This document shows, in pieces, positions 9,191 through 62,510 of a stretch of 64,000 bases of DNA. The stretch comes from Apophysomyces variabilis (lineage: Eukaryota; Mucoromycota; Mucoromycetes; Mucorales; Mucoraceae): NCBI GenBank assembly GCA_002749535.1, contig MZZL01000082.1:56360-120359 (forward strand), read 5' to 3'. A model generated the notes under the pieces. The model searched no databases. It had not been told where the DNA came from and worked only from the letters and a program-made list of their open reading frames with translations. Each line of letters begins with the position of its first letter. Position 1 is the first letter of the stretch. The position numbers and the translations under genes are program-made.

Positions 9191-10415
9191 CATTAACGGT
9201 TGTATGATAAAAATTTTTTGTGCTTAGTTTGAAATGCGTAGTATCAAAAAATAGGCATAGTTTTTGTTGACCAACTTTTCTCACAAATACAGCTACTTTT
9301 GAAACTATGTTGAACTAAATCATTCGATATTTACGTTTATTAAAAAGAGTTAGAGAGACTCTATCCTGCCTCGTATTGCGTTATGTATCATCTTCTTTGT
9401 TTATGTCGCACCAGTTCATATGTCGCGTTGATTGGACTGCATTAGTAAAATCTGGTTTTAACATCCTTATCGACAATCATAGTCAGAGCAGTTTACACTC
9501 TGCCTTATATGTCCCTTTATATTTAACTTTTCTATATTATTTCTTGAAACTGTTCAGTAACATTCACGGATACTAGATATATCTAGTTTAGTTTTTCTAA
9601 TTCATTCTACGTTTTAGAGTGGATGATTCGTAAACTGCTTCAAAGTATTGATTGTCCAATTGTTGTATCCCATTGTGCATATTAAAGGTATCCCTTCAAA
9701 ATCAGATAAAAAAATAAATACCGACAGAAACACAAGTTTTTTAACCTCTGGTTTTCTACTTTTCTCATAGCTTTTCTTCTATGTCTGATATAGTAAAATG
9801 ACCAATTTTTAATAGAAATTGATACTCTTCTTTTCAGAAGTAAGTTCTTTCGCCATGTTATTTTCATTTAAAACCCGTATGCATGCACGGAAATTTGTTG
9901 AAATCGCCTCTTTCCCTAGTTCCGTAAAACTCTTTCTCATAAACGCAGTTAGATTAATCACTTCCATCCTTAACAAGCATGGTTTAAGCGATTTTTCTTG
10001 CAAGATTATCATGTATTTCAAACCTTAGCAGCATTTAAACATACCATAATTGGATTAACTCTAAGATCAAATGTGCTCCTTCATGGGCATATCTTTGTTA
10101 CGTTCTGCGATGCAGATCATTGTCTTACCATCGCTCGATTAACTGACTTAACAATCTTTGCGTAATCTGTTCCATTTTATTCAAGTCTCTTCACTGTTTT
10201 ACCGATCTTTCGTTATTAATCATTATGCTAAAAGATGAATAGCCTGATTTGACTTTATTAACACCAAGTTTAAATTGAATGTAATGCATAAAAGATGCAT
10301 TATACCAGAGACGGATCAATTAACGAAGTTGTATCTGTAGTTGGACTATACCAACGGAGTATCTACAAAAAATCAGTCACCGATATAGTGCAGTGCTTGT
10401 ACTTACTAGGTAATT
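9191..10415. other. AT-rich spacer downstream of the Fanzor gene
   Basis: No gene supported. The part nearest 10415 is the 3' flank of the minus-strand Fanzor ORF and is the natural place to look for its guide RNA and right element end. Confidence 0.45.
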
Positions 10416-10428
10416 GCCCTTCACGGGC
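10416..10428 (-). other. Small hairpin spanning the Fanzor stop codon
   Basis: A GCCC/GGGC stem with a five-base loop surrounds the TGA stop of the nuclease ORF on the minus strand. TnpB and Fanzor guide RNAs typically overlap or follow the end of the ORF, so this could be part of such an RNA, but a four-pair stem alone is weak and no full RNA structure was derived. Confidence 0.25.
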
Positions 10429-13400
10429 CATGCAGAAGTCGAACCGGGGTTGGCTGACTAGCAAATTGTTGTGCAAGCTTGTAATTGCTTGAGTACTGAG
10501 AGCTGAACACCGGGATTGGACTTCCATCACTTGAGACAATCACGGATACGCGTTTGAGTGCAATGTTCTTCGACGCATTGCCATCCCGGTTCATAGTGTT
10601 ACAGCCGTTGACAACGGTAACACAGTTGGGGTTCACGCAGCAGACAGCTCCATTACACTTCCTGACCTTGCCGTCCTTCCCTCGGTATTTCTGTAACTGT
10701 AGAGGCTTGAGACACCAGTGGCAGGTCTTACTAGTGTTGTATTCGTTCACAATAACTACCAATCCTTTTCGTCTTTGTACTCCACGTAACCGTTTGAGTC
10801 CCCTGCGAGCATGTCCTCGAATGCGAGAATTGGTGGGCTGCCAATGGCCGTAAAAATGAACAGGTTTTTGAAAAATCATGTCTGGGGGGAAGTGCATACG
10901 TTCGATGTCAGCATACTTGTGGTATGCTTTATGGGTAAACACCTCTCTAGTACGCTTTTCACGTTCAATTCTCCTGTTGTCAGCTTCGGTCCCCTCTTTC
11001 TCAGCATTCTTGGCTCGTTCTCTGCGCAGACGATGTCTGTTCGAGCGCGAGTGATGGTTGACAGCTGATGCTCGGAGACTCCAGGTATTGTAAATATCGT
11101 GCCGTAGCTCTGTCGTTGTGTTACTGGTAAAGTCCTGTATCCGTTGTATCATCCATGCAGATGTCGTACTTGTCGACACACCGGTAATCCGGGTACCGGG
11201 ATCCACGCCGCAAACAGGGATCGAATTCTTCTCAAAAAGTGGCTTCACGAGAGACAGCATCTAAAATAGTTATCAATCTTTCATAATCTCTTCAGATTAA
11301 AGTGTACTTACCTGTGGCATATACCCTTCGGTGATCTTTGCTTTGGCGGATGACGTTGCTTGGCTACTGTGCTTTTGCTTTTTGCGCTTTCGTTTTCGGG
11401 AGCGACTTGTTGAAGCGCTGCTTTTCTCTTTGCCCTTCCCTTTTTTGCTTACTGCTCTCATCGCCTTGTTAAGGACGTAACGATCTCGTCGAGCTTGCTT
11501 GAGCTTTTCTTGCAGGACAATGGCAGTATTTGGTTTAGATCGGATTTGTTGGCGGGTTTGTTTCAGTTTTCGGTATGCCGTGCTATTTGTACGGCCATGA
11601 GCTGATATGCTGTGATTCATCCGCTCTTTTTCCAAGGCACCTATTTCCTTTTGTATTGGCTTCAATTGTTGCTCCAAACTGAGTATGCTTGCTTGTGTGC
11701 GATCAATTCTTTCCTGCAACTGAGCTTTGCTGAGTGTGAGTGTTATCTCGGGTTCCACGAATCTTTGATTATTTCGACGTTCTTGAATTGCAGATACCTA
11801 AAATCGTTTGTATCAATTAACAATGCCTTCGACTCGTATTATTCACTTACTTGATGTGGTATGTTTCGGTTGATAGTCCCTACGACTCGTACAGTCCACT
11901 CGTTCACAAAGACAAGTCTCCAACGGAAAAAGAAATGACGCCGATTCATCATGCGGTGTATTTTGTCCATCTGGAAAAATGCTTTAAAGACGGTTTCTTT
12001 TTCAGTCCTCGCTTGAAGCCCACTAGTGATGAATTCCCCTTGTCTGTTTGTAGGTATATCAAATGCATCAATCATGATTTTGTAGATGCCGTCTGCTTTC
12101 ACTGGCAAAGCCCATTTGTTACTTGTTTCGATCGTCAGCTTGTTGACACGGTCTTGCATGCCCAAGATAGTACTGACTACGTTCGATAATGCCGCAATAG
12201 GCAATACGGTAAGTATATGCTTTGCTGGAGGTTCATCAGGTTCATTTCTGCGTGGTGTGTATGGTTTCAGGAAGTTGGCAACTTTGGCAGCCACTTGTTG
12301 CTCAGCTATGGTCAATATAGTACCCATATGAACAGCGTCCGCGACGTCTTTTGCACTTATAGTACGTTTGATCAGGGGGATTCGACCAGCATACGAACAA
12401 TTGCAACTAGTGTACGAATAGTACGAGCACTGGTTTCCTTACTGGTTATTGGAGCTTGGCTACTAGTAGTAGCTGCCGTATCTTCGTCATCTTCAGAATC
12501 ATTGACCAGGTCATCCTCTGCTTGATCAAACCTAAAAGCTTCGTACTCATCGTCAGCTTTTTGACTTTTAATTTCCTTTTCATTCAATTTCTTCTGGTCC
12601 TCTGTTCGATCTTTTCGAGGTAAATTATCAGCAATCTTGCGTTGAATAGCTTCAACCACATTATCGGGACGACCATTCATGTATGCTTTCTTCAGTTCCT
12701 TGGTCCAGTACGATCGATTGCACCGTCTTTGTACATTAGACCTTAAACCTTTTCGCTGTTCTTGGCGATCCTTCTTTTCTTCGGCTTTTTTCTTCACAAG
12801 CTGCATGTATTTGGACATGCGACGGGGCGCTAAATTTACACGGAGCAACAGACGGATGACATTGGTAAGAGATCTTGGATATAAGGAACCACTGTAGATA
12901 TTGTTCGCCGCAGTATACAACGCCCTAAAAGAATCGGCTTGAAACTGTGACGCTACAGCATCATCGTCGGGATCGACCAGGGAGGATAGCACACCATTTA
13001 TGCTAAACCATGGTTTAGGTCTGCAGCCGAAAAAAAGAATTAGCAAGATTACTATAAAATGTAAAACGTACATCTGCTCTGTGTATATACCACCAACTGT
13101 GCTGTAGAACATGTTTTGGAACTGAGCAAAACTGAATATGTTTGCATCGACACCGGCGTCTGCATTAATAAAAGGCAGAGAGACTATACTATGTTTAGCT
13201 TTATGATTGCCAAAGTCGTAATCAGCAGGGAAAACGTCTGCTAGGTTGATTTGAGTACTGTAATTGTCATATCCAATGAATTGGTACACGTCGCCGCGAA
13301 GTACCTAACGAGGNTAATTGTCATATCCGATGAATTGTACACGTCGCCGCGAAGTACCTAACGAGAAGATGTTTAACTTCCCGATAGTAAACATGTCAAA

Positions 13401-14149
13401 CGACAAACCATATCCGTAAAATGAGATAAAACAGTTTGCATATTGCGTATCACTCTCGAATTTGATTCCTGTGTCATTAGCAAGCGGGATCTTACAGTAT
13501 CAAGATCGATATCTGGGCGAACAAGTTTTCGCAAAGTTGTGGTAGCCACACGAATGTACTCTTGATGGTTATCGTCTTCGTCATCGCTTTGCTCCTCGTC
13601 TTCACTTGGCTCGTCACCACTTCTGTTACCACCTTCACTATCATCACCATGTTTATCACTTGCTTTTCTCTTGGAATCCTTGATTGATGCAGCTTGTATT
13701 TCGTGATCAGTGATCTTTTTCAACTGATTGCGATAAAAAAAATCTTGCCATATCGTTCCAGAGCAACACAAGTTTATCCGGGCCTTTGAAATGTTGTTCG
13801 GGAGCAGATGGAGAAGCCTTTGTACCGTATTTCTCTTTCAAGGTTTTGAAAAGATGATCCGAGCTTCCGCTGCTAGTTATCAAACCTTTAGGCGTCTTGT
13901 TTCTGTTCATGAATTTCTCTTTGAATTTTTCTAAAGCAGCTCGAGTTGGATTTTTGTTTTCTTGTAATTCTGGAAAATTCCAAATGTATCCTCTTATTGC
14001 TGTGATATTATGTATTTAGATGATGTTCAAGTAAAAACAATAATCATTGCTTACATTTCTTTTCGTAATTCATCCTTAATAACTTCTTCTGTCACACCAA
14101 GTGGTGCACGTTGTTTTTTCTTCCTTGGCTCTCCCACGACATTTTTCAT
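10421..14149 (-). CDS. Fanzor RNA-guided nuclease homologue (TnpB-like, RuvC), intron-containing
   Basis: Minus-strand exons read as 14149-14055, 13992-13409, 13304-13072, 13020-11851, about 11782-11312 and 11260-10421, roughly 1,130 residues if two homopolymer frameshifts (A8 at 13735-13742, G5 at 12375-12379) are sequencing errors. The last exon carries the nuclease: RuvC-I CGVDPGTRITGVS (Asp codon 11203-11201), VNEYNTSKTCHWC with the alternative Glu seen in Fanzors (10744-10742) plus first zinc-finger Cys pair, a second Cys cluster (AVCCVNPNC), and RuvC-III MNRDGNASKNIALK (Asp 10585-10583). The preceding exon is a basic coiled coil with a Lys/Arg/Ser stretch resembling a nuclear signal. 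Fanzors use an RNA encoded near the ORF end to cut DNA; activity here is inference. Fanzors occur in Mucoromycota, where databases may label them Cas12f1-like TNB. Confidence 0.85.
13261..13365. repeat. Direct repeat around a single N (probable assembly join)
   Basis: The 53 bases 13261-13313 recur as 51 bases at 13315-13365, with only a base change and small deletions between them, separated by one N at 13314. The repeat lies inside the Fanzor gene at the acceptor of its third exon. A single N between near-identical sequence is what an unmerged overlap between two contig ends looks like. If the repeat is collapsed the gene reads continuously across it. Confidence 0.75.
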
Positions 14150-14203
14150 GGTCGCAGCAGGTTATATGAAAGGTGATTTTTCGATTGTGGTTTCAGGACC
14201 CGG

Positions 14204-14707
14204 TCACTTCGGAGAGGTAAACCTTGCAATATATAATGGAACCCAACGACTGGTTCTCGCATGAGAGTCCACTTTATGAAGAAGCGACATGTTATAGTCT
14301 GACTGATTGTTTCCAATCACTTTAGGTTTGCTCTGCGTGGAGAACAGGTACACCCGAATGTTGTACATTTTGGCAATAGCAATCAGACGTAGAAGGCCAT
14401 TTGCGGGAATGTTTTGGTTATCAGATAATCGTAGGGATACAGCATGCTGCTTGTCACCTAAGCAGCGCACTACAGCTACAGACAATGCACCCTCTAATGG
14501 AGAGGTGTTGAAACGCTTAGACACGGTTTGTATACCCCTTGCTTGCAACCATTGTAGCGCCTTGCTTCGGTTCTCTTTTGATATTGGTCGCCCTCTAGCC
14601 CCAGCAATCACTGTTTGCATGTACTGTTCATAGTTTTTAGTGGGGCTACGACTGATGGCATCGCCCATACTAAAACCTGGGTTTCCTACAAAGTTCAAAT
14701 ATGGCAG
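14204..14707 (-). CDS. OTU-like ORF next to the Fanzor gene
   Basis: One open exon bounded upstream by a plausible acceptor (after 14708) encodes about 166 residues. SVAVVRCLGDKQHAVSLRLSD, then GLLRLIAIAKMYNIRVYLFS and a final SRWVPLYIARF, recall the pattern of OTU cysteine-protease domains (Gly-Asp-His-Leu-Arg block, surface-strand block, hydrophobic-W-x-P-L end). The canonical DGNCLFRA catalytic block is not seen, so it would be inactive or 5'-incomplete. OTU-like domains ride in several eukaryotic transposons, which fits the surrounding mobile DNA. It lies directly upstream of the Fanzor gene on the same strand. The assignment is tentative. Confidence 0.33.
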   Translation of the reverse strand: MPYLNFVGNPGFSMGDAISRSPTKNYEQYMQTVIAGARGRPISKENRSKALQWLQARGIQTVSKRFNTSPLEGALSVAVVRCLGDKQHAVSLRLSDNQNIPANGLLRLIAIAKMYNIRVYLFSTQSKPKVIGNNQSDYNMSLLHKVDSHARTSRWVPLYIARFTSPK

Positions 14708-15469
14708 CTACAATATTTTTAACGTTAGTGTGCAGTGCTTGTTTTCTGTCGTTTACTTTACCATATAACAAAAAAAATAGTACAATAAAAAGGATAACTA
14801 AATAAGTATTTGAGAGTGCATAGACAGTGAAGTGTTAAGAATAAAAATCAACTGGTGAAATACGACATATTTAAACAGATCATTTCATTGTGAATACTTC
14901 TCCTTAGATTGTGTAACAGTACAATATAATTCAAGACAATGAATCATTCTGCAGTCGGCGTGTCAAATACTGAATGTGATCACTGATAAAACAATCATTA
15001 TATTCGATGGCGTAATTGATGTTTTTCCTTATGCAAACATCAAAAGGGGTTATCGTAAATCTCCATAATACTGTAGTTTATACAATAAGTACATATCCGA
15101 TTTCTTAGCACTATGAAAAGTGCCCATAAACGAAACTTCTATGGTTTATCTGTATTCACTTTACTATATACACTCAGTGAATAAAGGAACGAGCCAATAG
15201 AAGGTTCCTGCAAGAAAGAAAGAGAAGTGAGACATTGAAATTCTTTGTGTAATTTATCTTTGATATATAGAATGAGCTTTTCCTTTTTATTTTCTACGTA
15301 TGTGGTCTATTGCTTTCATTATATATACCTTTATATTTCAGCTACAAATCTTTTAAGAGAAATAAAAGAAGATTGATAGGATCGTTACAGCAAATAAACA
15401 AAGCTCTCTGTTGTCATTTGTAGTTCTTTTGTTCCTGTTTAGTTTTGGTTAAAGGTGGACCGTAGTTGA

Positions 15470-15772
15470 TGTAATAGCATGGCCTATGGCCAACGTCGCT
15501 ATCTACTTACGAAGAACGAATGCGTAAGTATAGAGGGTATGGGCGAGGAAGCGGTGTTGTGGGATGTGTGTCAGGAATGGTAACTGTTATTGAGAGTATC
15601 AGAAACGTGAGGATCCTGAGATTTTAGGATCCGTTTTTATATACAACGTCTGTGCGTGGAGAGTAAATGTACAAATAAATGAAGTACAAAAGATCGCTAT
15701 CTTAATCCTCACCTATACTGGCCAATCCGCACACAATGTCATAAAGATCTATCTGTAACATGCACTTCTACA
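15470..15772 (+). repeat. LTR-like repeat, copy 1
   Basis: A 303-bp unit beginning TGTAATAGCA and ending in CTACA (TG...CA, with TGTA/TACA inverted ends). It contains a TATA-like TTTTTATATACAACG near 15635 and AATAAATGAAG shortly after, in the order expected of an LTR promoter and polyadenylation region. It matches 17097-17398 in opposite orientation with many C/T and A/G differences. No clear target duplication flanks it, so it is either an old solo LTR or one arm of an inverted-repeat element. Confidence 0.65.
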
Positions 15773-17096
15773 GATAAAGTGTGTATATAATGTAAGGTTA
15801 GCATGTATTTTTCGATATCCGTCTAGGGGAAAAAAAAAAAGATTAGTGCTTCGGCTAGTGAGTGACAGAGATTGCGATATTTCTGAGCTATCTGAGCGTC
15901 TGTCAATGCAAAAATTGAAATAGCTTGAGAAAAGTATCAAAAGCTGCGACTCAGCTTGGTGACAGAGCCAAAAATTCAGCAGGAGGACTGTGACTCATGT
16001 CACAAATTCGGTGACTCCGGCTGATGATACCGTATGCAAGAAATAGTCTTATTTTTCTCATCTTCTTGGCAGCTTTGCTTATTCTAGCTGTGAGAAAATA
16101 TGCATAAATTTTCTTTACTTACGTTATAGGCTTAGCTTCAAATGAGATTTTAAGGAGTGGCAAAGATGTTCGTCAAATTTAGTATATATAGCCACAAAGA
16201 AAAAGTATTATCCTGTATTTTGCATATTTCACATTTATCAACTGTAAGACAAATTCCTTATGAAAACTATTCTCAAACAGAGCAGCATTGCATATAAGCC
16301 CTCATGTGCTATGAAAGCTTTTATTGTAAAGATTAGAATGCTTAATGATGAAATCGGCAACAGTTGTAACAAATATGATCAGGTGATTCTCCTTTAAAAA
16401 GTTCCAGAAAACCGATTGAGCTTTTTTCTTTGACATCTAAGAATAAAATAGATATGAAAAAAAGAGTAGGTATGTTCGCTTTTTCCATACATCCGTTTCT
16501 CTTTTCTTTTACAACGGCGTACCATGTTAGTTATTGATTGTGAAGAAGATGACGATCCACCTCTATACTATTAGAATGGGATTTACCTCGGGGACTCCTC
16601 CCCCAGATTATTTGAGCGCCGTTATAATAAACTAGGCGCTGTTTGACATATTAACCAGTAACGATATCAAGAGAAAATGGAGCAACAAACCATATGTAGC
16701 ATCTCACTAATTAATAAAGTGCCCGAGAAAATTCCCTATTACAATATATATGGGAAGTCAAGACCACTCTGTTTGCTGGAGTGGCTTCAGCAGAGCCCAT
16801 GACCAGAATGGTGTATCAGTTCCTCAACTTATAGTAAGTATCAATAGTTTTGTAGAAAAGGAAAGGCTAATCTATTGGTATCCGTCAGCTATCTATATAC
16901 CATAAAGCTTGCATGATTAACGTGATTCAACACTTTCAATCAGCAGTTTGTTAGAAAGTTCTTTTTTTCTCTCGTAAGTAATTTATAATAGCTCTTATAA
17001 CAATACTAACCTTATCTCTAGTTCCGCGCCATTGGCGCCCAGACAGTTAAAGGGCTGTTAAACAGCCCCTTCGTTGGGTATGGTGTGTGCCAAAAG
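15773..17096. other. Interior between inverted LTR-like repeats, no ORF
   Basis: 1.3 kb of AT-rich DNA with no open frame longer than about 60 residues and no protease, reverse transcriptase or integrase motif seen. The part abutting the second repeat (minus strand from 17096) begins cttttggcacacaccat, which could be a degenerate primer-binding site (TGG followed by complement of a tRNA 3' end); this is a guess. Confidence 0.4.
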
Positions 17097-17398
17097 TGTA
17101 GCAGTGCATGCTACAGATAGGTCTTTATGACCTTGTGCGCGGATTGGCATGTATAGGCGACGATTAAGGCAGCGATCTTTTGTACTTCATTTATTTGTAC
17201 GTTTACTCTCCGCGCACAGACGTTGTATATAAAGACGGATCCTGAAATCTCAGGATCCTCATGTTTCTGATATCCTCAAAACGGTTACTATTCCTGAATC
17301 ATATCCCAAAACAGCGCTTCGTCACCCTCACCCTCTATACTTGCGTGTTCGTTCTTTGTAAGTAGATAGCGACGTTGGCCATAGACCGTGCTATTACA
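17097..17398 (-). repeat. LTR-like repeat, copy 2 (inverted)
   Basis: A 302-bp unit on the minus strand, TGTAATAGCACGG ... GCTACA, alignable end to end with 15470-15772. The TATA-like TTTATATACAACG and AATAAATGAAG elements are conserved. Where the copies differ, copy 1 often has T or A where this copy keeps C or G, consistent with deamination-driven decay of copy 1. Flanking AAAAG and AACAG might be a worn 5-bp target duplication, which would make it a solo LTR. Confidence 0.65.
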
Positions 17399-50533: not shown

Positions 50534-52973
50534 GATGTAGAACAATCATAGATTTGTTGGAGCCAATATAAATAGAAAGTAAGGCAATGCAATGGCAAAC
50601 GATGACAAACGGGGAAATGTCGATTTTCCCCGTCTGACACTTTCACAAGAACTCAGAATTCGTTGCTGAGTTTCAATAGGCTGCAATGTATGTACACCAC
50701 TGTAACAGCCAATTGCAACTATTCACGGAGGCCTTTAGCTTCTGGATATGATATCGTTATTATATAGTCACTTAAATTCGCATTCAATTCAAAATGATAG
50801 ATTGCGTTTGCGAAACTCTGGAACACTGTTTGTTGACTGCTGTCTTACGCTACTCTAGACAAATTTTACGTACCAATGAATGGTCAAAGTTGGGTTAAAA
50901 AGGAATAAGTATAAGTAACTCGTTCACGAGTAATACGGGAAGTATTTTTGACTTGCATGAACTTGTTGCACAACCAAGCTGATTCCGGAAACAGACTATA
51001 TAAGTAAAAGATGCACATCAGGAACTTCAGTTATTCACCATGTATAAGCAAGTGGAGTGCATACCGGGGATGTCTAGAAAACAAAGTCAAAGGGTGAAAA
51101 AGCTGATGTCCCCTTCTGTTGCATAGCTTGAGTCAGTGAAACGGATTAGTCAGTCATTGATAGGAATCGATAAATATCTAGACAAGGAAACAGAAGACAA
51201 CAACGCCTTTACGTCAATGGATGATGCATGAAAGGAGGACAACGTCTTCAAATGGAAGCCAAAGAGCAATCCTTAAGACAAGGCATGTCAGAGGTAATAC
51301 AGACGCTATTATCTAATCGCAGTGAAATACCCATTCAGCAGCAGAAATTTGCCCTATGAATCAGTGCCATATAGTTGATATAGGGTGCGAAGACATGTTC
51401 AAAGGTTCGGAATATATAACGGTTTATACCACACAATATTGTAAGCGGAGCATGTCGAATATGTTGTTTTATAAACATGACAACTTCTTCCGATATAACG
51501 AATTAGGATCCTAGAAGAATAGTTCATTACCTGAAACATACGCGGCAGGCACATGATATAGACTTTATCTACCGAAAAATATACGATGACAAAGCTATTT
51601 TAGAGCTGCTGATTTTATGTTCTGGTCTTTTATTTCTTTAAAACAAAAAAGAAAGAAACATGCAAAGGCGTTTTGAAACAATACACAACGCTTTGGGAGT
51701 TTCAGCGCATCGTTTGCTTCCTTAGTTGCGAGAAAGTACCTCTAGCTTAAGCGGCCATTAGAAATGAAACGGTACCTGAACGATTTGATTTATGTAGATT
51801 GCCAAACATTACTATTAAGTATGATTTGTTTAGAAACTACCAGATGAGAAGATTTCGGTAGCTAGCAAGGTCAAAGATTGTTTCCTTTACCCTGTCCTTT
51901 CTTTTTCAAGAGAAAGTGTCGCCGCTGAATCCCGATCCCTGGGATTCGGACTTTTTTTGTGTCGTCCCTGAGATGGATGAACGAATCGGAGCGATTATGG
52001 GACTGGAAGAAATAGAAGAAGACGATGTTTGAGAGTAGATGACCACGAAACATCCTCTATCGAATCGTCGCCCTAGAATAAGTTTTAGAGGTAGAATTGT
52101 TTTGCCGTCGTCCGTCAGGCACAAGAAAATACAAATAGAGAGGAAGTTGATACAATAAAAGAATCATCTTTTACGATCCTTATTTTATTGTCTCATCGTT
52201 CTGATCCGCTGCAAGTTTGACCGATTAACTATGTTACAGTGATTCGGAATAAAACTCAGATCCAAGTGTCATCGTCTTTTGCGTCGGACTTTACATTACC
52301 CTTTCTCAGATTGAGTCGATCCCTTCCGATCAAGAAGAAGCTTCTAGCGACGATGTCTAGCGATCTGATTTGGCTGGATATCTGAAAAATTTCCAGAGAA
52401 TTCTTTTATGCCCAGACTACTTCGGATATCTCAGGAATGAAAAGATATAAATAAGAATCAAATCACAAATAAAGGACGTCATCTTTTGCTCCTCTCATAA
52501 TTTATCCATTGATATTCTATTGTTAACACCTTGTGGGTTGCCTGATCGATTTCACCAATCAAGTAATCAGGAATCAGCCTAGGAACCGCGAGAACGACAA
52601 AAGTCTCAGTTACAAATTTTAAACCCCGCCACATTTGTCGTGTCAATCCCGATCTGAAATAGTCCGCACAAGATCTTCAAGGATGATCGACGAGTGCAAT
52701 GAATAAAATAAACGATAGATAAAAGGATGATGTTTATTCTGTCTTGTCTGTCTAATATTTATATCTTTTGATTCTAGCTACATTATATAATCCTTGTCGG
52801 CAATGGGATGCAAAAGGAAACCAATTGAGAGCATTACGTCAAAGTCGATAACCGAGAGTACTTCTTGTAGTTCATGATATTTTTGGAAGAGGGCCGAAGA
52901 TTACTATCTTAAGCTCTTGACCGTGATTGGTGGAACGGTTTGTGTCACGACACATTTTGTGGGTTTGCAAAAA
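50534..52973. other. 2.4 kb without a supported gene
   Basis: AT-rich sequence. Small frames at 51871-52124 (minus) show only low-complexity Ser-rich translation. No transposon motif, RNA gene or repeat family recognised. The left end must contain the promoter of the DUF1647-like gene. Confidence 0.45.
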
Positions 52974-53045
52974 TGGAGACGCCGGGGTTTGAACCCGGGG
53001 CCTTCTGCATGCAAAGCAGACGTGATACCACTACACCACATCCCC
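52974..53045 (-). tRNA. tRNA-Ala (TGC)
   Basis: The minus strand from 53045 reads a seven-pair acceptor stem (GGGGATG with CGTCTCC, two G-U pairs), a D arm GTGTAGTGGTATCAC, an anticodon arm TCTGC-TTTGCAT-GCAGA with anticodon TGC, and a T arm CCGGG-TTCAAAC-CCCGG, followed by discriminator A at 52974. The TTCAAAC loop and full stem pairing are diagnostic. TGC reads GCA alanine codons. No intron. Internal A and B boxes of polymerase III are intact. It is an isolated gene about 1.4 kb from the DDE-element pair. Confidence 0.95.
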
Positions 53046-54389
53046 ATTCGATGGGTGACACGGTGCGTGATTATTTCTGACCATCCCTGACCATCCCAAG
53101 AAAGTAAAAAAATACGGAAATGAAGCGCTTGCGTATACTCGATTCTACGGAAAGTCTTGGTCTTCTTCCCGTCTCTTCGGTTATGTGCACCACGTTCTTG
53201 GAGGTACACGACACTTGGGGTGGAGTTCGTGCACAACGTATTTGGCTGGGACACAACGTCTGGCAGTTGTTGGTACACCGCGTCTTTTGAGGTACACTAC
53301 CTTTACGAACCAAAAGATAGACACACAACAGACTCTAATAGTGCACAACTTTCGTGAATGATGAACCTACCACTTGACCTTGACCTGGGTAAAACCGGTG
53401 TTATACGACGCTATCATCTCTGCATTTTATTATTCTATTCTAACATATATGCTGTTGTCTTTTAAGTCAAGATAGTATAATTTATAATTATTTTCTTTTG
53501 TTCATTATTGCTATCTTCTGTTTCATCCATTCTTTTATTAATTTTCTTTTCTAAAGATCTTGTCTTACTAGTATGAAGTTTAGTAGAAGTTTCTCTATTA
53601 ATAAAAAGATGAGGGCTAAGAGAATGGAAAAGTGCAGGAGCAACATCCAAAAAATCCTTTTTGTACCTCAAGCTCTGTTTACACTCTGAAATTTGTCTTG
53701 ATCAAGTTATATTGTTGTCATTAGATTGCTGAGAATTATTGAAGCATATAATTGACAGAAGTTTATTGTGTATTTTGCTGGAGTCTTTTTTTTTAGTACC
53801 CTTCTATTATTGTATTTCCTTCTTTCGATCATCTTTATTTTACTATTCTCTTTTAAAATTCTTTAACACTCTTCTTATGGTTAAGATTATCTTATTGTAT
53901 CCTTCTCCTTTTATCAATTGTGATTACATTGTATCCTTTTCTTCTAAGTGTTATATTTATTGTGCGCCCCTTCCCTTCCTATGTATATTTGTATTCTCTT
54001 TATTTGTACCCTTCTGTCATAAGACAAAGCACCGCATGTGTCATGGGAGTCAATTGGGAAATCTAGGCGGGCCTGAAGTGTTCGGGGTGGTATGGGCGAA
54101 TAGCATTTGCATATAGTGCAAGAGCCAGCCAGTGAAAATGTGATATAGTGCATTTGAGCTACTGCTCGACCAATAAACAGTTTATATAGTGTTTTCATTT
54201 CATCCAATAAAATGATCACATAGTGATTCCCCTTTCTGCTTCTGCTTATCCAGTGAAAACCCTGCATTTAAGTCTGTGTTTAAAATTCAAATAAGGTTCG
54301 AAAAAATTCTAAGGATAATCATCTAAACATTGCTCTTTTTTTCCATTAGCGTCAACTTATCCAACTTAAGCTGAATATAATTTTCAAAA
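53046..54389. other. AT-rich flank of DDE element copy 1
   Basis: No gene is supported. The sequence is strongly AT-rich with pyrimidine-biased runs. CCAAT boxes occur near 54170 and 54203, and a cluster of ATATAGTG repeats precedes the element gene (listed separately). Confidence 0.45.
54111..54225 (+). repeat. Spaced ATATAGTG direct repeats
   Basis: ATATAGTG occurs at 54111-54118, 54143-54150 and 54184-54191, and ACATAGTG at 54218-54225, spaced 32, 41 and 34 bases apart and interleaved with CCAATAAA and CAGTGAAAA words. They lie 165-280 bases before the ATG of the DDE element gene, so they could be regulatory or transposase-binding subterminal repeats. Confidence 0.45.
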
Positions 54390-57300
54390 ATGAAGAGAGG
54401 AAGACCTATTGGACAAAAGAATTCCCCTGACCATCGTGCAGGACGTCCTCGCAAAACTCAGGAAACAGAATCGCTTAGACAAACAAAGCTCTCATTCATG
54501 TCAGCCACTGGAAAATATTCTGAAGCTTCTTCATCAGCGTCAAATGCTCCTACAACTATATCTAAGTCCAACGATCAGCCTGTAGAGGTATAATTCTTCA
54601 GTTAAAGTCTATATTTAAGCTAATCTATTTTTATTAATCTAGAAAAGTGGAAGTGATGGAGAGGTAGCAATAGAAAGGCATAGCCTTAGAGAGCTTTTGT
54701 CGGAGATTGAGCAAGACAGTGTTATCATCGATGCTCAAGATGGAGAAGTAGCTGCTGAGGATGAAGAATCAGACAGTGAGGAGAACGTCATTGAAGATGA
54801 TACTAAATATGATGAAGCTCGCGATAGAGTGCTAGAAAGATATTTCTTATCTTTGCAAGCACGGCTTAAAAGAGAGAGTTTTCCAAAAGAATACCAACTT
54901 GGTACATTCTGGGTCGAACCACCATTAGCATTTTTCACTCTTGATAAGGGCCAGATTGATCCAACTGTCCTTTACTATCCTTGAGTGTTTCTTTGGTTGC
55001 CGCATCATATAAAGAAAGATTTATTATACCCAGCCTGTAATACCAGACTGTTGGTTAAAGGCTACAACAAAGGTCCTTGCGCATGCCATGTTGTTGACCT
55101 AGAAAGGTATGCAGATAAGTACATGTTCAGCTAACTAATACATGTACTGTTTCAACACCGGACCAGTTGCTTTTATATCCTATCAATTCGTTATATCTGT
55201 GCAAACAGTGTCTGTAGGCGTACCATAAGTGCTCATGCTGAGCAGATAATGAAACAGCTTCCTAAACATCTCATTGCAGAATTTCCAGCATACCTCACAC
55301 ATCGATGTGCAATATCCAAAGCTGTAGGAAACCTGCTCTAACCTGCTGTTCAAAATGGCATGGGTATTAAACGTTTCCAGCACACTTTACGTGAACTACA
55401 CACACTTTGTCGTGACAGGCTGGAGCTTCAGTATCTGAATGCTATAAACTACTGTCATATGAAGCCAACAATTGCTGATACCCTATGAGATACCAACGAG
55501 TATGCACCCTTTTCTTCATTCGATGAGAAGAAAGGTTATGCTGGTTTTGTTCCTTCAGCAGCTTATTTGCGCTTGGTGTATACCACTATTTTAGACAAGC
55601 TTAGACCGTTAATGGACAAGCAAATGATGACTCTTGGTGGGCAGATTCTCAAAGGGGACCACTCCTTTAAGATCATCAAGAAGCTGGCAAAAGTCGGAGA
55701 AGCTTCAGTATTCAGTGCTCTTTATACTGTTTACAATGAATATGAAGAGATCCGTATGCAGCAACTTGTGCCGACCAAGTCTCTAATGCACCTTCGCACC
55801 TCTTTCGAAGAAATGGCAAAATCATACCGACTCTGCGGCCACAAATTTCCTGAAGTGTTCTTTACTGATAACGTCCAAGGAGATCGCCAATTTTTGGAGA
55901 ACGTTTTGCCGTCCCTTTGTCGTAATATAGGGGTCAATGACTATGTGATACCGCAGCAATCTGCTGAAAGTTGCAACCGTTACCTGGACCTTCCGAGTGA
56001 TATCCATTTAAAATATGCACCAAAAGCCGAGGAAGCAAATATGCTTCTTAATAGCATAATGAAAGATACTGCCAACGATACCACCATCGTCGTTGGATTC
56101 GACTGCGAATGGAATTACAACCAAAGAACACGAATACCTGGAAAAGTAGCTGTCGTGCAGATTGCGTATAAAGACATTGTGTATATCATACCAATACATG
56201 CATTACAGGGTGTTCCGACATCGCTGAAGACGTTACTCCAAAGCTCTCTGGTTTTGAAGTCTGGGCGAAACGTGGGAGGGGATCTCCAAAAATTAAAGCG
56301 AGATTATGGTGTGAACTATTCTGGAGCACTAGAACTTGGCTCTTTCTGCAAAAGGAGAGGTACAATTAACAATGGAACGGCTAGTCTCTCCAACATTTGT
56401 AAGGCTGTTCTCGGTGCTGGCCTCAACAAACAGAACACTGTCCGATTAAGCAACTGGGAATCTGCTCAGCTCACAGAGGCGCAACTTCATTATGCAGCAT
56501 TAGATGCCTGGGCGTCTGCAGAAATATTTAATCGTTTGAAGCATATAAGTCCTATCGGCCAAATAATTCCTACACCTCAGCCTGGCATGTTTGTCGGTTT
56601 TTACCCCAAGTCCTCCAGAGTATGTGTGGCATACGGCCAAGTAGCTGAAGCACACGACATCTTACATAAAGTTTCAGTTACTGCCGAACATACCATTATG
56701 TGCATTAACAGAGTGGTCATACCGGGAGCAATTATTCCAGAGCACAAGATACCCTTGGCTGAACTTGGAGCACCCCCTTTCAATATAGTTGTCAAGATAT
56801 CACATTTGAAGTCTGCAGCACAACCTATGTGTGAGCTACAAGCAATTCCGCAAGCATCTTCGTTACCAGCTACAAGTTCGAGATACCCGAATCAGACACT
56901 GTCAAACCGCTCTGGTCAGCGTAATCATACTGAAAATCCTAGGATTCTCAAAGATATCTTTCATTTAATGGACATGATCAAGATACCAAAGCATCACGGG
57001 TTAGCAAAAGAGTTCTCCCGCCGATTTCGGGACGCATTGCTTGTTCCTGATCCAGAAGATCGGCAAAGAATAGAGGCATACCTTGAGACACAGAATACCA
57101 GTTGGGACTACGCAATATCTACTCGACCAGCCTGGGTTTTCCGTCGAGTAAAGCGCATGATCCCCCCCACAGAAGAATTATACCCTGTAGTTGAAAACCT
57201 TTTCCGAGAATATGGTCCACTTCGGTGTGCGAGGACAGGGCAACCACTTTTTGACGATGAGGCCCAAAGACAAGCAGCTCATGTGCTTAGAGCCATACAG

Positions 57301-58630
57301 CATGGGCAAGTATCAGATCCACCAGGTATAACGCTGTATTTTAAGATGGGGCAAGACAAAAACCGCTTGCCGTTATATAGATGTAGTAGGGGGACAAATT
57401 CATTGGAAGGAGGTGTGCATCAAAACATCATCCGCAAGTTTGTCTCCTTTGGTGCTGGACCTCATCTGACCGATTGTGCACTTGCAGATTATCGGCTGCG
57501 GCATAACATTGATGTAAGTTCATTAATAAGTTTTCAGTCTAGGGAAACTATGCGCAAAAGCAGAATATTAATGGTTCTCTTAGGTTGGCAGCGTTAACAG
57601 ATACAATCGTGTGCATAAAAGCCATTATGAGCCATGGCTTATCGAAAATATTCAGCGTTTACGCCATCGTCTGGGGCTCCATCATATTGGTCATATGCAA
57701 ACAACCGATAGCTGCATTTATAGTCTGGATCTCAGAACAGGGCATGAAACCTTTGGCATCACGTCCTTTTCCCAAGAACTTGCGCAATCGTTTGGTATAG
57801 CCACTGCAAATATCTGCAGAGTTGAAAACGACGATGTTATCTTCAATGAAGAAAGTACATTATTTTCTAGGTGTATCAGTACATATATGGTGTTTGAAAC
57901 TGGATCAACAAGCAATCCTCGTGGCCAGCTATATCACTACCTTGCAGCAAAACAGGGAACAGTATATGCAGTGATACCTGTACATACCCGCGAAGAATAT
58001 CAAGTTTTTAAATCTATACTTTCAGATATCCAAGCTTCAAGTAACCAGCTGGACTGGATAGTTTTTGCTCAAACCTGGAACAGAGATTATGCCAATGGCA
58101 TTAACGTCTTTTATAAGACTCCAGAACATCTGAAGGCTCACTTTAGTGTTTTTAATGAAAGACAGATTGCAGTTAGAAGTATGGATCAGAGCATAGGAGT
58201 TTGCGAGACCATGCTGGAAGAGCTACAGTCCCCAGGTCGAGCACATGATATCTTACCAGCGCATACTCCATCACCAATATCTTTTGCGGATAGTTCCACT
58301 AGTATCAATACTACGCCTTCAATTATACCAAATCCAGTCAATTTAACAAGTGCCACCCCACCAAGAACAAACCTACGGCCAATGCTTTTACCCCAAAGTG
58401 CATCTGCTTTATCTGCTCGTTTGCCCCAAGAGGTCATGGTATTACCAGCTTCAAATGTGCCCACTCTACGCACGATTTATCCGCAAGCAGTCGTAAATGT
58501 GAATCATGAAAGAACACGATTCGATACCCGAGACTTGCCAAAAAAGTCTACAAGGGTTTGCAGCAGGTGTAGGAATTCTTCTTGCAAGGGCTCCTCTCGT
58601 AGGTTACGTTGTAGGATGTTTCAAAATTAA
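54390..58630 (+). mobile_element. DDE transposon gene with inserted 3'-5' exonuclease domain, copy 1 (broken)
   Basis: Starts MKRGRPIGQKNSPDHRAGRP, two AT-hook-like repeats. Introns include 54588-54642 and 57514-57583. An acidic stretch is followed by a zinc-binding DUF6729-like region (FWVEPPLAFFTL, VFLWLPHHI, FYILSIRYICANSVC, EFPAYLTHRCAISK), then a DDE-type core: KGDHSFKI (about 55657) and FFTDNVQGDR (about 55867). A DEDD exonuclease follows: VVGFDCEWNY (about 56095), a GGDLQKLKRDYG Asp and LHYAALDAWASAEIF. The core resumes (NPRILKDIFHLMD, WVFRRVKRMIPPTEELYP) to RGTNSLEGGVHQN, with the probable catalytic Glu, and ends with a zinc knuckle RVCSRCRNSSCKGSS. Stops at about 54982 (TGA), 55338 (TAA) and 55487 (TGA) break the front part. 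Terminal repeats were not defined. Family name not established. Confidence 0.72.
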
Positions 58631-59103
58631 GCAGCTACATCTATATCTACATCTAATTAGACTTTTATATATCATTATTATTACTCGTTTGTATAATCCA
58701 TATTTAACTGGTCAAAAGAAAGCTTTTATCTGCCAAGTTTCCATCATAATTACTTATTAATATTAGAAATGGATAGTCTTATGAACGGCTGAGACTATAT
58801 ATAGGATTACATTATTGATAATTGTTTTACATAGTGTTCATTGTGGATTGCAATTTAAAGAACAGATAGGAAGCGAAACAGTATGTCTTAGTTTATTGCT
58901 AATTTTCCGGTGCAAAAGTTAGCTACGTCATTACTTTAAAGTCTAAGGTTTGACGTACTGAAAACAAAGTAAATTAATTCCAGGTAACCCCACCTATGTT
59001 ACCCGGGCCGAATTACCAGCTTAAAAGAGATGTACAGGGGCAGTATTCAAAACTGTTTTTCATCTTAGATCAAAAATAATATTTGTATAACAGCATTGCA
59101 ACT
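58631..59103. other. Spacer between the two DDE element copies
   Basis: AT-rich. At 58983-59003 GGTAAC and GTTACC flank cccacctat, an inverted pair that could be an element end; a related GTTACC-GGAGCCC word recurs after copy 2 near 62702. Evidence for terminal inverted repeats is weak. Confidence 0.35.
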
Positions 59104-62100
59104 ATGAAAAAAAAAGGAAGACCCACTGGCCAAAAAAAACAAGCCAACCCATCGTGCAGGGCAGCCACCAAAACGGTGTGAGACAGTTCCATCAAACTAA
59201 AGAAAACTTGAATTTGTATCATCCCAAGCAACGGATAATACAATAGCATCTTCTTTTATCGATAGAAACACCAATGAATTAGAGGATATGGGTCCCTCTG
59301 GACAGGTTCTATTAACTATTGCACACACTAAAAATTGACCACTCGATTAGGATCATGTTAGCACTAATCTAACTTCGACAGCAACAAAGAGCCTTGGCGA
59401 TTTAGTTCTACAAGAAGAAGACAATGTCAGCAATGAGAAAAATAGTGATAGCAGTTGTGCTAATAACATGCAAGCTCGTTCTGAAGATTCCATTATTGAT
59501 GAGACCGATCTTATTGAAGATAACCAATGGTACGATGATGAGAACGTTGTAGAAAATGATGATGACTATCATCAGACTAGCGATAGAGAAATGGAGCAAT
59601 ACTTTGCTTCAATACAAAGTCGTCTAGTGCTGGAGGGGTATCCATATAAATATAAGATTAGTACATTTTGGATCAATCCACCAGCACCATTTTTTACTCT
59701 GAGGAATAATAAGCTAAATCCTACTATGCTATATTATCCTCGAGTATTTCTATGGTTGCCACACCATCTACTCGATGCCAGTATAACTTTGCGGTGTCCA
59801 ACCTGCAACCACTTGTTGGAGGTGAAGGCATATAACAAGAGCCCGCGTGCACGCCGAGTGGTAGACATAGATAGGTGCATTGTGTAAAATGTTGCTCACG
59901 GACGTCTATATTGCTAACGTTGTTGGAACCAGCCATTTCTATATTATGTCTATCCGTTATAGATGCACTTCAAGGAACTGCAATCTAACAATTAACTCAC
60001 ATGATGCGCGTATCCTATCACAGCTTCCCAGCCATCTAGCGGCAGAATTTCCTGCCTATCTGACACATAAATGTGCTGTGTCAAAGATTGTAGGAGATCT
60101 ATTACGACCATGCATGCAAAGTGGAATGGGTATTGTACGTTTCCATCGTACACTCCAAGAGCTTCACTATTTGCGTTACGATCGTCTAAAGTTACAATAC
60201 CTTAACGCCATTAAATCTCGGCGTAAATTCCCCAAGCTTGTTGACATGTTAAGCTCCAATTCCTCACCATTGCCTTTCTCAAGGTTTAGTGACCGTGCAG
60301 GTTTCGCCGGCTATGTTCCATCAGCTGCTTATTTTCACCTGATCTACACAGCTATTATAGACCAACTAAGACCATTGATGGATAAGCAGATGTCAGTTAT
60401 CGGCGGACAAGTACTAAAAGGAGACCATTCCTTCAAGATAATCAAACATATGGGGACGATCGGCAGTGCTCCGATATTTACTGCCTTATATACAGTTTGC
60501 AATGAATATGAAGAAATCTGACTTCAACAGCTTGTTCCTACAAAGTCCTTATCTCATCTGAAGTCATGCTTTCAGCAAATGCTTAACTCTTACCGCTTGT
60601 ATGGGCACAAGGAACCAGAGCTATTCTTCACAGACAATGTACAAGGTGACCGTAGATTTCTCGAAGGAGTCTTGCCATCGCTTCAACACAATATTGGATC
60701 GGATAACGCTATTGTAAGCGAACAAAGGTAATGGTGATACATTGGTGAAACATTATCTTACAGCTGTCCATCTCATTGAACCAACAGGAACCCGCGAATC
60801 CTGAAAGATATCTTCCACCTGATGGATATGATAAAGATCTCTAGACGTCATGGATTAGCAAAAGAATTTTCGCGTCGTTTATGTGATGCGCTCCTGGTTG
60901 TTGATCAAGAGGACCGGCTTTTGGTAGAAAGACATCTTGCGACAAGGAATTTAACTTGGGATTATATGCTCTCTACCAGGCCATCATGGGTATTTCGCCG
61001 CGTTAAACGTGTGGTCCCGCCTGTAGAAGAGTTATATCCAGTGGTAGAGAATCTTTTCAGAGAATATGGGTCNGTATTTCGCCGCGTTAAACGTGTAATC
61101 CCGCCTGTAGAAGAGTTATATCCAGTGGTAGAGAATCTTTTCAGAGAATATGGGTCGATACAATGTCCCACAACAGGATATCTATTGTTTGATGAGGAGG
61201 CTTGGAAGCAATCTGCCAATGTTTTAAAGGCTATTGAGCAGGGACAAGTGTCTGACCCACCAGGCTTTTCTCTCTATTTCAAGATCAGGCATGACAAAGA
61301 CAATCTGCCTTTGTACAGATGTAGTCGCGGTACAAACTCTTTGGAAGGAGGAGTGCATCAAAACATTATACAGAAGTTTATGTCTTTTGGCGCAGGCCCT
61401 CACCTTACAGATTGTGCTCTTGCAGATTACCGTCTACGCCATAACATTGATGTGAGTATACATAATAAGTGTCTTGATGGAACGCACCCAAATGTTTAAG
61501 TTTGCATTAAACTTTACTGACTAATACCTTATTTAAAGGTTGGAACTGCTAATAGATATGGTCGTGTTCATAAGGGTCATTACGAACCATGGCTGACGGA
61601 GACCATCCAAGCTCTAATAAGGGAACTCGGTGTAAATGATGACAGTAACGATCGAGTGGTAGCAACTATGCAAAATACAGAGAGATATACGCCTATTGAA
61701 ACGTTTGCCATCGGAGCGTTTCTGCCTGATCTGGCCGATAGTCTTAATATCACTCTCGTTGAAACACAAAGAGATGAACATACTCAGCCAATAGCAGATC
61801 TCTCAAAGCAGGCAAGCACAACCTTGGTTCTTTCCAGCAGATCAACTGCAAACCCAAAGAAGCAACTATATACCTACTTGGCAAACAAGCAAAGATCAAA
61901 GTATGCCATAGTGCCTGTGCATACCCAGCAGGAGTTAGATCTCTTCCGACACATGATGGAAATCTATCATCAGCGACAGAACCAAGTAGATTGGATATCG
62001 ATTGCGCAAAGCTGGAACAAAGACCATGCTGACGGTGAAACCATATTTTACAAGACGTCAGAACACATCAAGAGTCACTATAATGTATGGTTTGAAAGAA

Positions 62101-62510
62101 AAGTGGCAACGATAACAATACTGTCCAGCCGAGGCATCTGCAGTACTATGCATCAACATCTACAGTCGCCTAGTCGTGCTCGTATGATTGAACCAGCACA
62201 TACTCCATCACCCCTGACAATACCTGCCTTGTCACAAATACCATCACCTCAACCAAACACTTGGCCTGGATTCACTTTGCTGCCACAACAGCCACAACAC
62301 ACAGCAACTTCTAGAACATATACCCTTCCAAGAATCTCACCAAAACTAGTATATCCGTATACCAACTCAGATTCTAGTCAAACATCTGATATCCTCATGG
62401 GTATTCCGAAGAAATCTACGCGCACATGTAGTATATGCAGAGACCCTTCTTGTAAGGGTTTCTCATTGAAAACACGCTGCCAACAATATAGAAATCCGTC
62501 AGATACATAA
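59104..62510 (+). mobile_element. DDE transposon gene lacking the exonuclease domain, copy 2 (broken)
   Basis: Alignable with copy 1 along its length: a frame-shifted start near 59104 (GRPTGQK), acidic part, FWINPPAPFFTLRNNKLNPT, zinc-binding region (RCPTCNHLLEVKAYN; FYIMSIRYRCTSRNC), DDE-like KGDHSFKI (about 60420) and LFFTDNVQGDR (about 60630), RGTNSLEGGVHQN (about 61330), and a final zinc knuckle RTCSICRDPSCKGFS. Where copy 1 has about 980 bp between NIGVNDYV and NPRILKDIF, encoding the exonuclease, this copy has about 60 bp. The intron after RLRHNID is kept at the same position. Breaks include a frameshift near the start, TGA in place of Arg after YEEI (about 60518), and a local duplication around N at 61073. 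Confidence 0.68.
60990..61156. repeat. Direct repeat around a single N (probable assembly join)
   Basis: The 83 bases 60990-61072 and 61074-61156 are the same sequence except for two adjacent bases (GG against AA at 61013-61014 and 61097-61098), separated by one N at 61073. In protein terms a 28-residue segment is duplicated in frame, which the sister copy does not have. As at 13314, this looks like an unmerged contig overlap rather than biology. Confidence 0.78.

Follow-up and report, generated by a model that had tools for sequence, protein, structure and literature searches.

The stretch analysed here, 64,000 nucleotides of contig MZZL01000082.1 of Apophysomyces variabilis (hereafter the window, always meaning this stretch at its full length), contains on its minus strand a transposon copy that carries the gene for a predicted Fanzor1-type nuclease of unusual size. 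A. variabilis is an agent of mucormycosis, and its assembly (38.7 Mb in 126 contigs) was made from Illumina reads with SOAPdenovo2 (PMC5604411). The exons of the gene (Table 1) were mapped from four copies elsewhere in the genome, L022, L024, L025, and L027, in each of which six exons separated by GT-AG introns of 49–54 nt form one unbroken frame of 1310 amino acids (all four of the four modelled); these copies differ from each other by 8 to 25 substitutions (99.6–99.9% identity). An earlier note, made from the letters alone, had proposed six exons, and the same six indeed join without a break in the four sister copies. The extent it gave for the gene (10421..14149) stood at the stop end, and Met172 (∼14149) may be the start; in the sister copies, however, the open frame extends a further 171 codons upstream to window position 14668, through an open reading frame (ORF; 14204–14707) that had been left out. 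Met172 is eligible because the proteins of L047 and L048, two related families of the same genome (see below), begin near residue 150 of the 1310-residue protein, and as the nonsynonymous deficit in the 171-residue extension varies between copies, translation may start at either Met1 or Met172.

Table 1. Features of the transposon copy and its nuclease gene (window positions).
Feature	Position	Strand	Remarks
Whole element, giant-Fanzor transposon family	10348..16034	-	5.69 kb as assembled; blastn among 20 copies
Exon 1	14055..14668	-	Mapped from four unbroken copies; in-frame stop 14204–14202 in window copy; Met172 (∼14149) alternative start
Intron 1	14000..14054	-	55 nt, GT..AG
Exon 2	13409..13999	-	Frame broken in window copy by single-base length differences near 13960 and 13742
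Intron 2	13358..13408	-	51 nt, GT..AG; resembles a frame change when unspliced
Exon 3	13072..13357	-	Holds N13314 assembly join and ∼52-bp duplication
Intron 3	13021..13071	-	51 nt, GT..AG
Exon 4	11851..13020	-	Single-base length difference near 12380
Intron 4	11798..11850	-	53 nt, GT..AG
Exon 5	11312..11797	-	
Intron 5	11261..11311	-	51 nt, GT..AG
Exon 6	10421..11260	-	RuvC-I Asp 11203–11201; alternative Glu 10744–10742; zinc Cys 10723 to 10622; RuvC-III Asp 10585–10583; stop 10423–10421
3′ tail, stop codon to right end	10348..10420	-	73 nt; candidate guide-RNA scaffold; placement as in SpuFz1
Nearly invariant 26-nt block just after the stop	10392..10417	-	
303-bp dispersed repeat in the element's 5′ non-coding part	15470..15772		Inverted 88% copy at 17097–17398, just outside the element

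The motifs GVDPG, NEYNTSKTC, and NRDGNAS all lie in one open exon, exon 6. The three RuvC residues and the relocated glutamate, both recognised by the earlier note, are confirmed there, the glutamate being placed six residues ahead of the first zinc cysteine. In the numbering of L024, the catalytic and zinc-binding set consists of D1051, E1204, C1211, C1214, C1239, C1244, and D1257; L024 and the window copy retain all of it, as do 9 of the 14 further copies in the comparison; L032, L034, L036, L039, and L040 have each lost one of these residues. The spacing agrees with the Fanzor1 pattern D-X(125,275)-[TS][TS]-X-X-C4-X(5,50)-RD (Bao and Jurka 2013), as D1051 is followed by 155 residues, TS (1207–1208), the four cysteines, 11 residues, and RD (1256–1257). 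The Fanzor1 fingerprint—a DPG motif in RuvC-I, described as near exclusive, together with a Glu lying six positions ahead of the zinc finger (PMC10711439)—takes the form GVDPG and E-YNTSKT-C both in the unbroken copies and in that of the window. Likewise, the glycine conserved 36 residues before the alternative Glu in SPu-1 (G500/E536; Bao and Jurka 2013) has its counterpart in G1169, 35 residues before E1204 and invariant in alignments A1 and A6. The alternative Glu is also invariant in A1 and A6; for prokaryotic TnpB, the criterion applied was a canonical Glu that precedes the zinc finger by ∼50 residues, and a second invariant Glu, E1151, lies 60 residues ahead of the first Cys in an A-x-x-E-R context. 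The majority of Fanzor1 proteins have 600–700 residues (PMC11423790); the 1310 residues of the four unbroken copies are about twice as many, length being a typical and not a defining trait. In the 1.37-kb part of L024 upstream of the Fanzor gene, no ORF of more than 93 codons was present (shorter ones went without a domain scan), and therefore neither a transposase was found nor the serine recombinase of an IS607-type element by which Fanzor2 is recognised; Fanzor2 is thus the less likely class, although members outside IS607 are known.

When exon 6 alone was compared with the Protein Data Bank (PDB), the Spizellomyces Fanzor was the only match at E ≤ 1 (E = 0.0028). A C-terminal profile built from two copies of the window's family and four members of sister families, searched against 177,635 PDB sequences, ranked Parasitella Fz1 (3e-5) and Spizellomyces Fz (3.4e-5) at the top, followed by two Cas12f proteins (0.004–0.005) and then a kinesin-like protein (0.064). 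The Pfam model of the TNB domain (PF07282) gave 24.0 bits for exon 6, the cut-off being 26.3, and 26.5 bits in a genome scan that included frame neighbours. Residues and profile matches together support a gene product of the Fanzor1 type, in which a predicted split RuvC nuclease is combined with a zinc-ribbon TNB domain.

The carrier of this gene is a multi-copy eukaryotic DNA transposon of a mucoralean fungus. Exon 6 had 109 matches in its own genome; the 20 places of the best-matching family, the window copy included, were fetched and compared pairwise by blastn. Both element ends were present in 12 of the 20 (the right end of L034 falls a few bases short), and these complete copies have differing flanks; the left end went undetected in the other eight, in L023 because its contig stops. 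The best copies start with TACGGTATCATCAGCCGGAG and end with GATACTCCGTCGGTAT, and TA closes the left flank in 9 of the 11 copies compared (L034 excluded). In a search for empty sites, the joined flanks of L021, L022, and L027 aligned with three older repeats (79–84% similar), in all of which the left border reads, by eye, TA; a target-site duplication (TSD) was not called there because the border, or the sequence close to it, is interrupted by indels ranging from a few bp to ∼250 bp. The 5′ half of the element had at least 46 matches in the genome, with 40 of 95 candidates scored; the top five were 99–100% identical. Nine left ends have no close same-strand nuclease exon downstream (C64:425633, C4:88406, C6:932, C70:597319, C110:56280, C81:84752, C43:225947, C76:127360, and C120:73123); as several of them reach into the gene, they may be truncated copies or bear other cargo. 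The 303-bp repeat of the element's 5′ part has more copies elsewhere in the genome.

The divergence of the window copy from the unbroken group amounts to 3.5%. In exon 1 this copy has an in-frame stop, which is a substitution when compared with the eight other copies displayed; its exons 2 and 4 contain single-base length differences. Of four other copies aligned over exon 4, L029 and L036 have the difference too and L022 and L038 do not, a pattern that argues against a random error in the reads; the Illumina platform is not prone to homopolymer indels. In contrast, the single N at 13314 lies within a 52-bp duplication, and as the sole other N of the window (61073) is accompanied by an 83-bp duplication of like form, it looks like an unmerged contig overlap; it is the only break that is clearly an assembly artefact. 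The change of frame near 13400 proved to be the unspliced intron 2. The proposal of the earlier note that this copy could be competent, were its frameshifts sequencing errors, is therefore not supported, since the nonsense substitution in exon 1 and the indels in exons 2 and 4 persist. The window copy is, judged from its reading frame, most likely inactive, and it is unsuitable to represent the family. Repeat copies assembled from short reads can be chimeric, a caveat which applies to the breaks in the window as well as to the near-identity of the unbroken copies.

Whether substitutions were filtered for their effect on the protein was assessed by neutral simulation for 4 of 15 copies, with P values uncorrected for repeated testing. 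Between the window copy and L024, 13 of 28 changes in exon 6 were nonsynonymous (20.3 expected under neutrality, P = 0.005), compared with 41 of 65 in the middle part (47.7 expected, P = 0.05) and 13 of 21 in the N-terminal extension (14.9 expected, P = 0.24). For L029, the corresponding values were P = 0.001 (7 of 19 changes in exon 6 nonsynonymous), 0.025, and 0.006, for L036 0.29, 0.026, and 0.39, and for L038 0.13, 0.083, and 0.051; the deficit in exon 6 is thus not significant in L036 and L038. In the 171-residue extension, no deficit was seen in L021 and L036 and a borderline one in L038. The simple ratio of nonsynonymous to synonymous substitution rates (dN/dS) of exon 6 was below 1 in all 15 copies (0.17–0.65). 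With two of the four copies tested showing too few nonsynonymous changes in the nuclease exon, the signal of selection is partial.

The element ends 73 nt downstream of the stop codon. The 26-nt block at the start of this tail is nearly invariant: only 2 of 312 alignment cells differ among 12 divergent copies (window copy included), which makes it the 14th lowest of 5180 stretches in variation; those listed with lower values belong to exons 1 and 2. With up to three mismatches allowed, the block was located 23 times in the genome (17 perfect matches, 5 with a single mismatch, and 1 with two), and its reversed control not once. In SpuFz1, the guide RNA consists of a 75-nt scaffold located between stop and right end, with 14–15 nt of the flank serving as the guide (PMC10432273). 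Because the SpuFz1 scaffold occupies the same place, a role of the tail or its 26-nt block as guide-RNA scaffold is plausible. The post-stop regions of L047 and L048 are different; they share AGGTGCGT as well as conserved islands including a hairpin around GTCGCTATGAC in which two base pairs are compensatory. Structure prediction recovered this hairpin for L048 but not for L047, and neither tail folded clearly better than its shuffles (z = −0.76 and 0.06), so that the predicted GTCGCTATGAC hairpin is suggestive only.

The window's family has relatives both within and beyond its genome. The C-terminal profile retrieved nine database proteins, among them four of Apophysomyces ossiformis and one of Radiomyces spectabilis; two of the other four are 57–58% identical over exon 6 and keep GVDPG and the same motifs. 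Two more families of this genome, represented by 10 and 12 matches of equal score, encode spliced proteins of 1287 (L047) and 1257 residues (L048), which align with the 1310-residue protein over about 1070 columns at 23–25% identity. A search with L047 (8000 candidates scored) yielded proteins of Mortierella alpina (1346 residues, E = 2.9e-92; another of 842 residues) and Actinomortierella ambigua (1467 residues, E = 1.5e-71), none with a functional name. The two long ones, which have no Pfam match at E ≤ 0.1, contain GTDYG, the alternative Glu, C4, and RD; the 842-residue protein has GTDFG, and a pattern search did not find its Glu-zinc motif. NCBIfam models gave only two, unrelated matches to the four long proteins of A6 (E = 0.048 and 0.097). 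Over 1056–1218 columns, the window's family is 21–25% identical to four other long proteins, D-E-D being kept. Beyond the window's family, eight relatives were examined, and RuvC-I reads D-Y/F-G in every one (GTDYG in L047, L048, L049, L050, and L051, DYG also in P0010 and P0011, and DFG in P0012), that is, the DPG half of the Fanzor1 fingerprint is missing; the alternative Glu is present in all seven with a readable region. PF07282 had at least 73 matches in the own genome (150 of 164 candidates scored), 57 of them above cut-off (8 in the window's family and 49 outside it); the genome is therefore generally rich in Fanzor-like genes. The available part of the A. variabilis genome paper (PMC5604411) makes no mention of Fanzor. 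In the literature searched, no Fanzor report for Mortierella was found, for Mucorales only the PpFz1 structure paper, and, judged by title, no paper on giant Fanzors.

Among known systems, SPu-1 of Spizellomyces punctatus, with its protein SpuFz1, resembles the window's family in D-E-D, the Glu six residues before the zinc finger, the C4 zinc ribbon, RD, and its multi-copy transposon; the region between stop and right end (∼75 nt versus 73 nt) and the TA at the border (putative TA TSDs in SPu-1) are also similar. It differs in having 633 residues in a single ORF and 33-bp terminal inverted repeats (TIRs), as opposed to 1310 residues, six exons, and no convincing TIR. PpFz1 of Parasitella parasitica, itself a mucoralean fungus, is the best PDB match of the C-terminal profile (9cf0) and shares the G-x-W before the alternative Glu; it has a RuvC insertion (FRI), and outside the C-terminal part the two do not match. 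As its PDB construct of 1259 residues includes an MBP tag, PpFz1 is shorter than that. ROr-4, PBl-3, MCi-2, MCi-4, and MCi-5 (Bao and Jurka 2013) are MuDR-like or unclassified elements of Mucorales with Fanzor1 genes; the ROr-4, PBl-3, and MCi families have TSDs of 6, 9, or 11–12 bp, whereas none was seen in the window's family. Some copies of MCi-5 carry a Harbinger transposase and MCi-2A a partial Crypton transposase (Bao and Jurka 2013), whereas none was found in the window's element. The Fanzor-coding 3′ part of MCi-2 spans 6 kb (Bao and Jurka 2013), and these elements may include similarly large proteins. The proteins of M. alpina (1346 residues) and A. ambigua (1467 residues), both named "hypothetical protein", are full-length homologues of similar size with G-x-D, alternative Glu, C4, and RD, but have GTDYG in place of GVDPG and are 23% identical to the window's family.

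Taken together, the locus is probably one decayed member of a multi-copy DNA transposon family, the only recognisable gene of which encodes a giant Fanzor1-type nuclease, directed by a guide RNA in the unbroken copies. Fanzor1 proteins use a guide RNA from the element's 3′ end and cut guide-matching DNA beside a short motif (PMC10432273, PMC11423790); from this analogy we infer guide RNA, target-adjacent motif (TAM), and RNA-guided cleavage for the window's family. In the unbroken copies, RNA from the 3′ end would supply the guide RNA, with the last tens of nucleotides of the element as scaffold and the adjoining host sequence as guide. The protein, whose ∼1000 N-terminal residues presumably form the lobe binding RNA and target, would load it and cut matching DNA adjacent to a short sequence motif that probably ends in TA; the excised or empty site would thereby be cut and the element copied back. 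Such re-copying (homing) into empty sites is known from work on TnpB.

Several results weigh against this interpretation. At the level of homology, the earlier note's assignment to Fanzor/TnpB was borne out by the C-terminal profile, which ranked PDB Fanzor1 proteins first, but not by the guided_TnpB model (15 bits, cut-off 100); PF07282 was matched at E ≤ 0.01 by only two of the six members of alignment A1 and six of the ten of A2; the full-length profile reached Spizellomyces Fz, the best of six matches at E ≤ 10, via the C-terminal part only (E = 0.0069); and the 1346-residue Mortierella protein, used alone, retrieved no PDB Fanzor and only LINE-1 ORF1p (E = 0.013). The structure of exon 6 predicted from ten sequences was poor (predicted local distance difference test score of 48), and as matches of a low-confidence model are meaningless, it was not compared with fold libraries. 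At the element level, no long TSD was seen at the borders, a 9-bp terminal inverted match was not above chance (P = 0.06 against shuffles, 0.07 against internal pairs), and because no transposase gene was found in the element, it presumably moves in trans. In the tail, the 44 nt next to the 26-nt block differ in 51 of 518 cells, which is above the element mean of 5.2%, and neither the 73 nt (z = 0.6 to 0.9, four of four sequences) nor the last 200 nt folded better than shuffles.

Some of these points would also fit a descendant of Fanzor that has acquired another job through its large N-terminal part—as a non-guided nuclease or an accessory of transposition—with the 26-nt block acting as a signal for splicing or transposition. 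The 1031 residues before exon 6 have no match in Pfam, nor the N-terminal ∼1000 among solved Fanzors; the block contains the 5′ splice-site word GTAAGT, followed in the tail by a branch-like CTGAT, a T run, and CAG/TAG, so that by eye the tail resembles a 44-nt intron and could be a mini-intron instead; and folding gives its structure no support. This alternative appears unlikely, given that most copies retain the residues of the nuclease and the zinc finger, that full-length homology extends to four other long D-E-D proteins, and that in the sister families the region after the stop differs and contains a conserved hairpin. Even less probable is a defunct relic, the open copies of which would be recent duplicates or short-read artefacts encoding a protein without present function: stop codons in 12 of the 20 best exon-6 matches and the eight copies without a detected left end (one at a contig end) would be expected, and near-identical repeats may have been consensus-filled in an Illumina assembly; however, four copies up to 25 substitutions apart all have the frame intact, exon 6 shows the nonsynonymous deficit, and two database proteins at 57–58% identity keep the same motifs. 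Contamination with a prokaryotic TnpB, or its recent transfer from bacteria, is very improbable. Although PF07282 was found in 6 of 14 prokaryotic control genomes, the gene has five short GT-AG introns and the alternative-Glu layout, about 20 copies are dispersed in one fungal assembly, and the named database relatives (Apophysomyces, Radiomyces, Mortierella, and Actinomortierella) are all fungi.

A few further observations concern candidates that were dropped and the remainder of the window. Pattern searches in viral contigs gave 2 (exon) and 16 (profile) matches, none of which was confirmed by tblastn, so that an origin from viruses is not supported, and an OTU protease, suspected by eye in the first ORF, had no Pfam support. 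A protein-database search with the full 1310 residues brought none of the 8000 candidates scored to E ≤ 0.001, and Rfam over positions 10000–16500 gave nothing at the gathering threshold. Apparently two adjoining copies of another mobile element occupy 55489–62510, with one ORF for a PF01612 3′-5′ exonuclease and another for DUF6729; the second copy contains N61073 and its 83-bp duplication. A tRNA-Ala gene (anticodon tgc) is located at 52973–53046 on the minus strand.

Returning to the preferred reading of a giant Fanzor1-type nuclease, the relatives with D-Y/F-G may, as a tentative suggestion that we hold less likely than its opposite, constitute a separate giant-Fanzor lineage of Mucoromycota, of about 1250–1470 residues and mostly unrecognised by Pfam, to which the DPG-bearing family of the window would be the link from ordinary Fanzor1. 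If D-Φ-G (Φ, Y or F) were ancestral, the published DPG fingerprint would not cover this eukaryotic lineage, which would have an N-terminal lobe of ∼1000 residues without known fold. A multi-copy family of twice the usual size, with recent unbroken copies and DYG relatives in other fungi, suggests that part of Fanzor diversity escapes searches by motif and by Pfam, and it provides concrete proteins with which to ask what role the extra ∼600 residues play and how the change from DPG to DYG affects cleavage.

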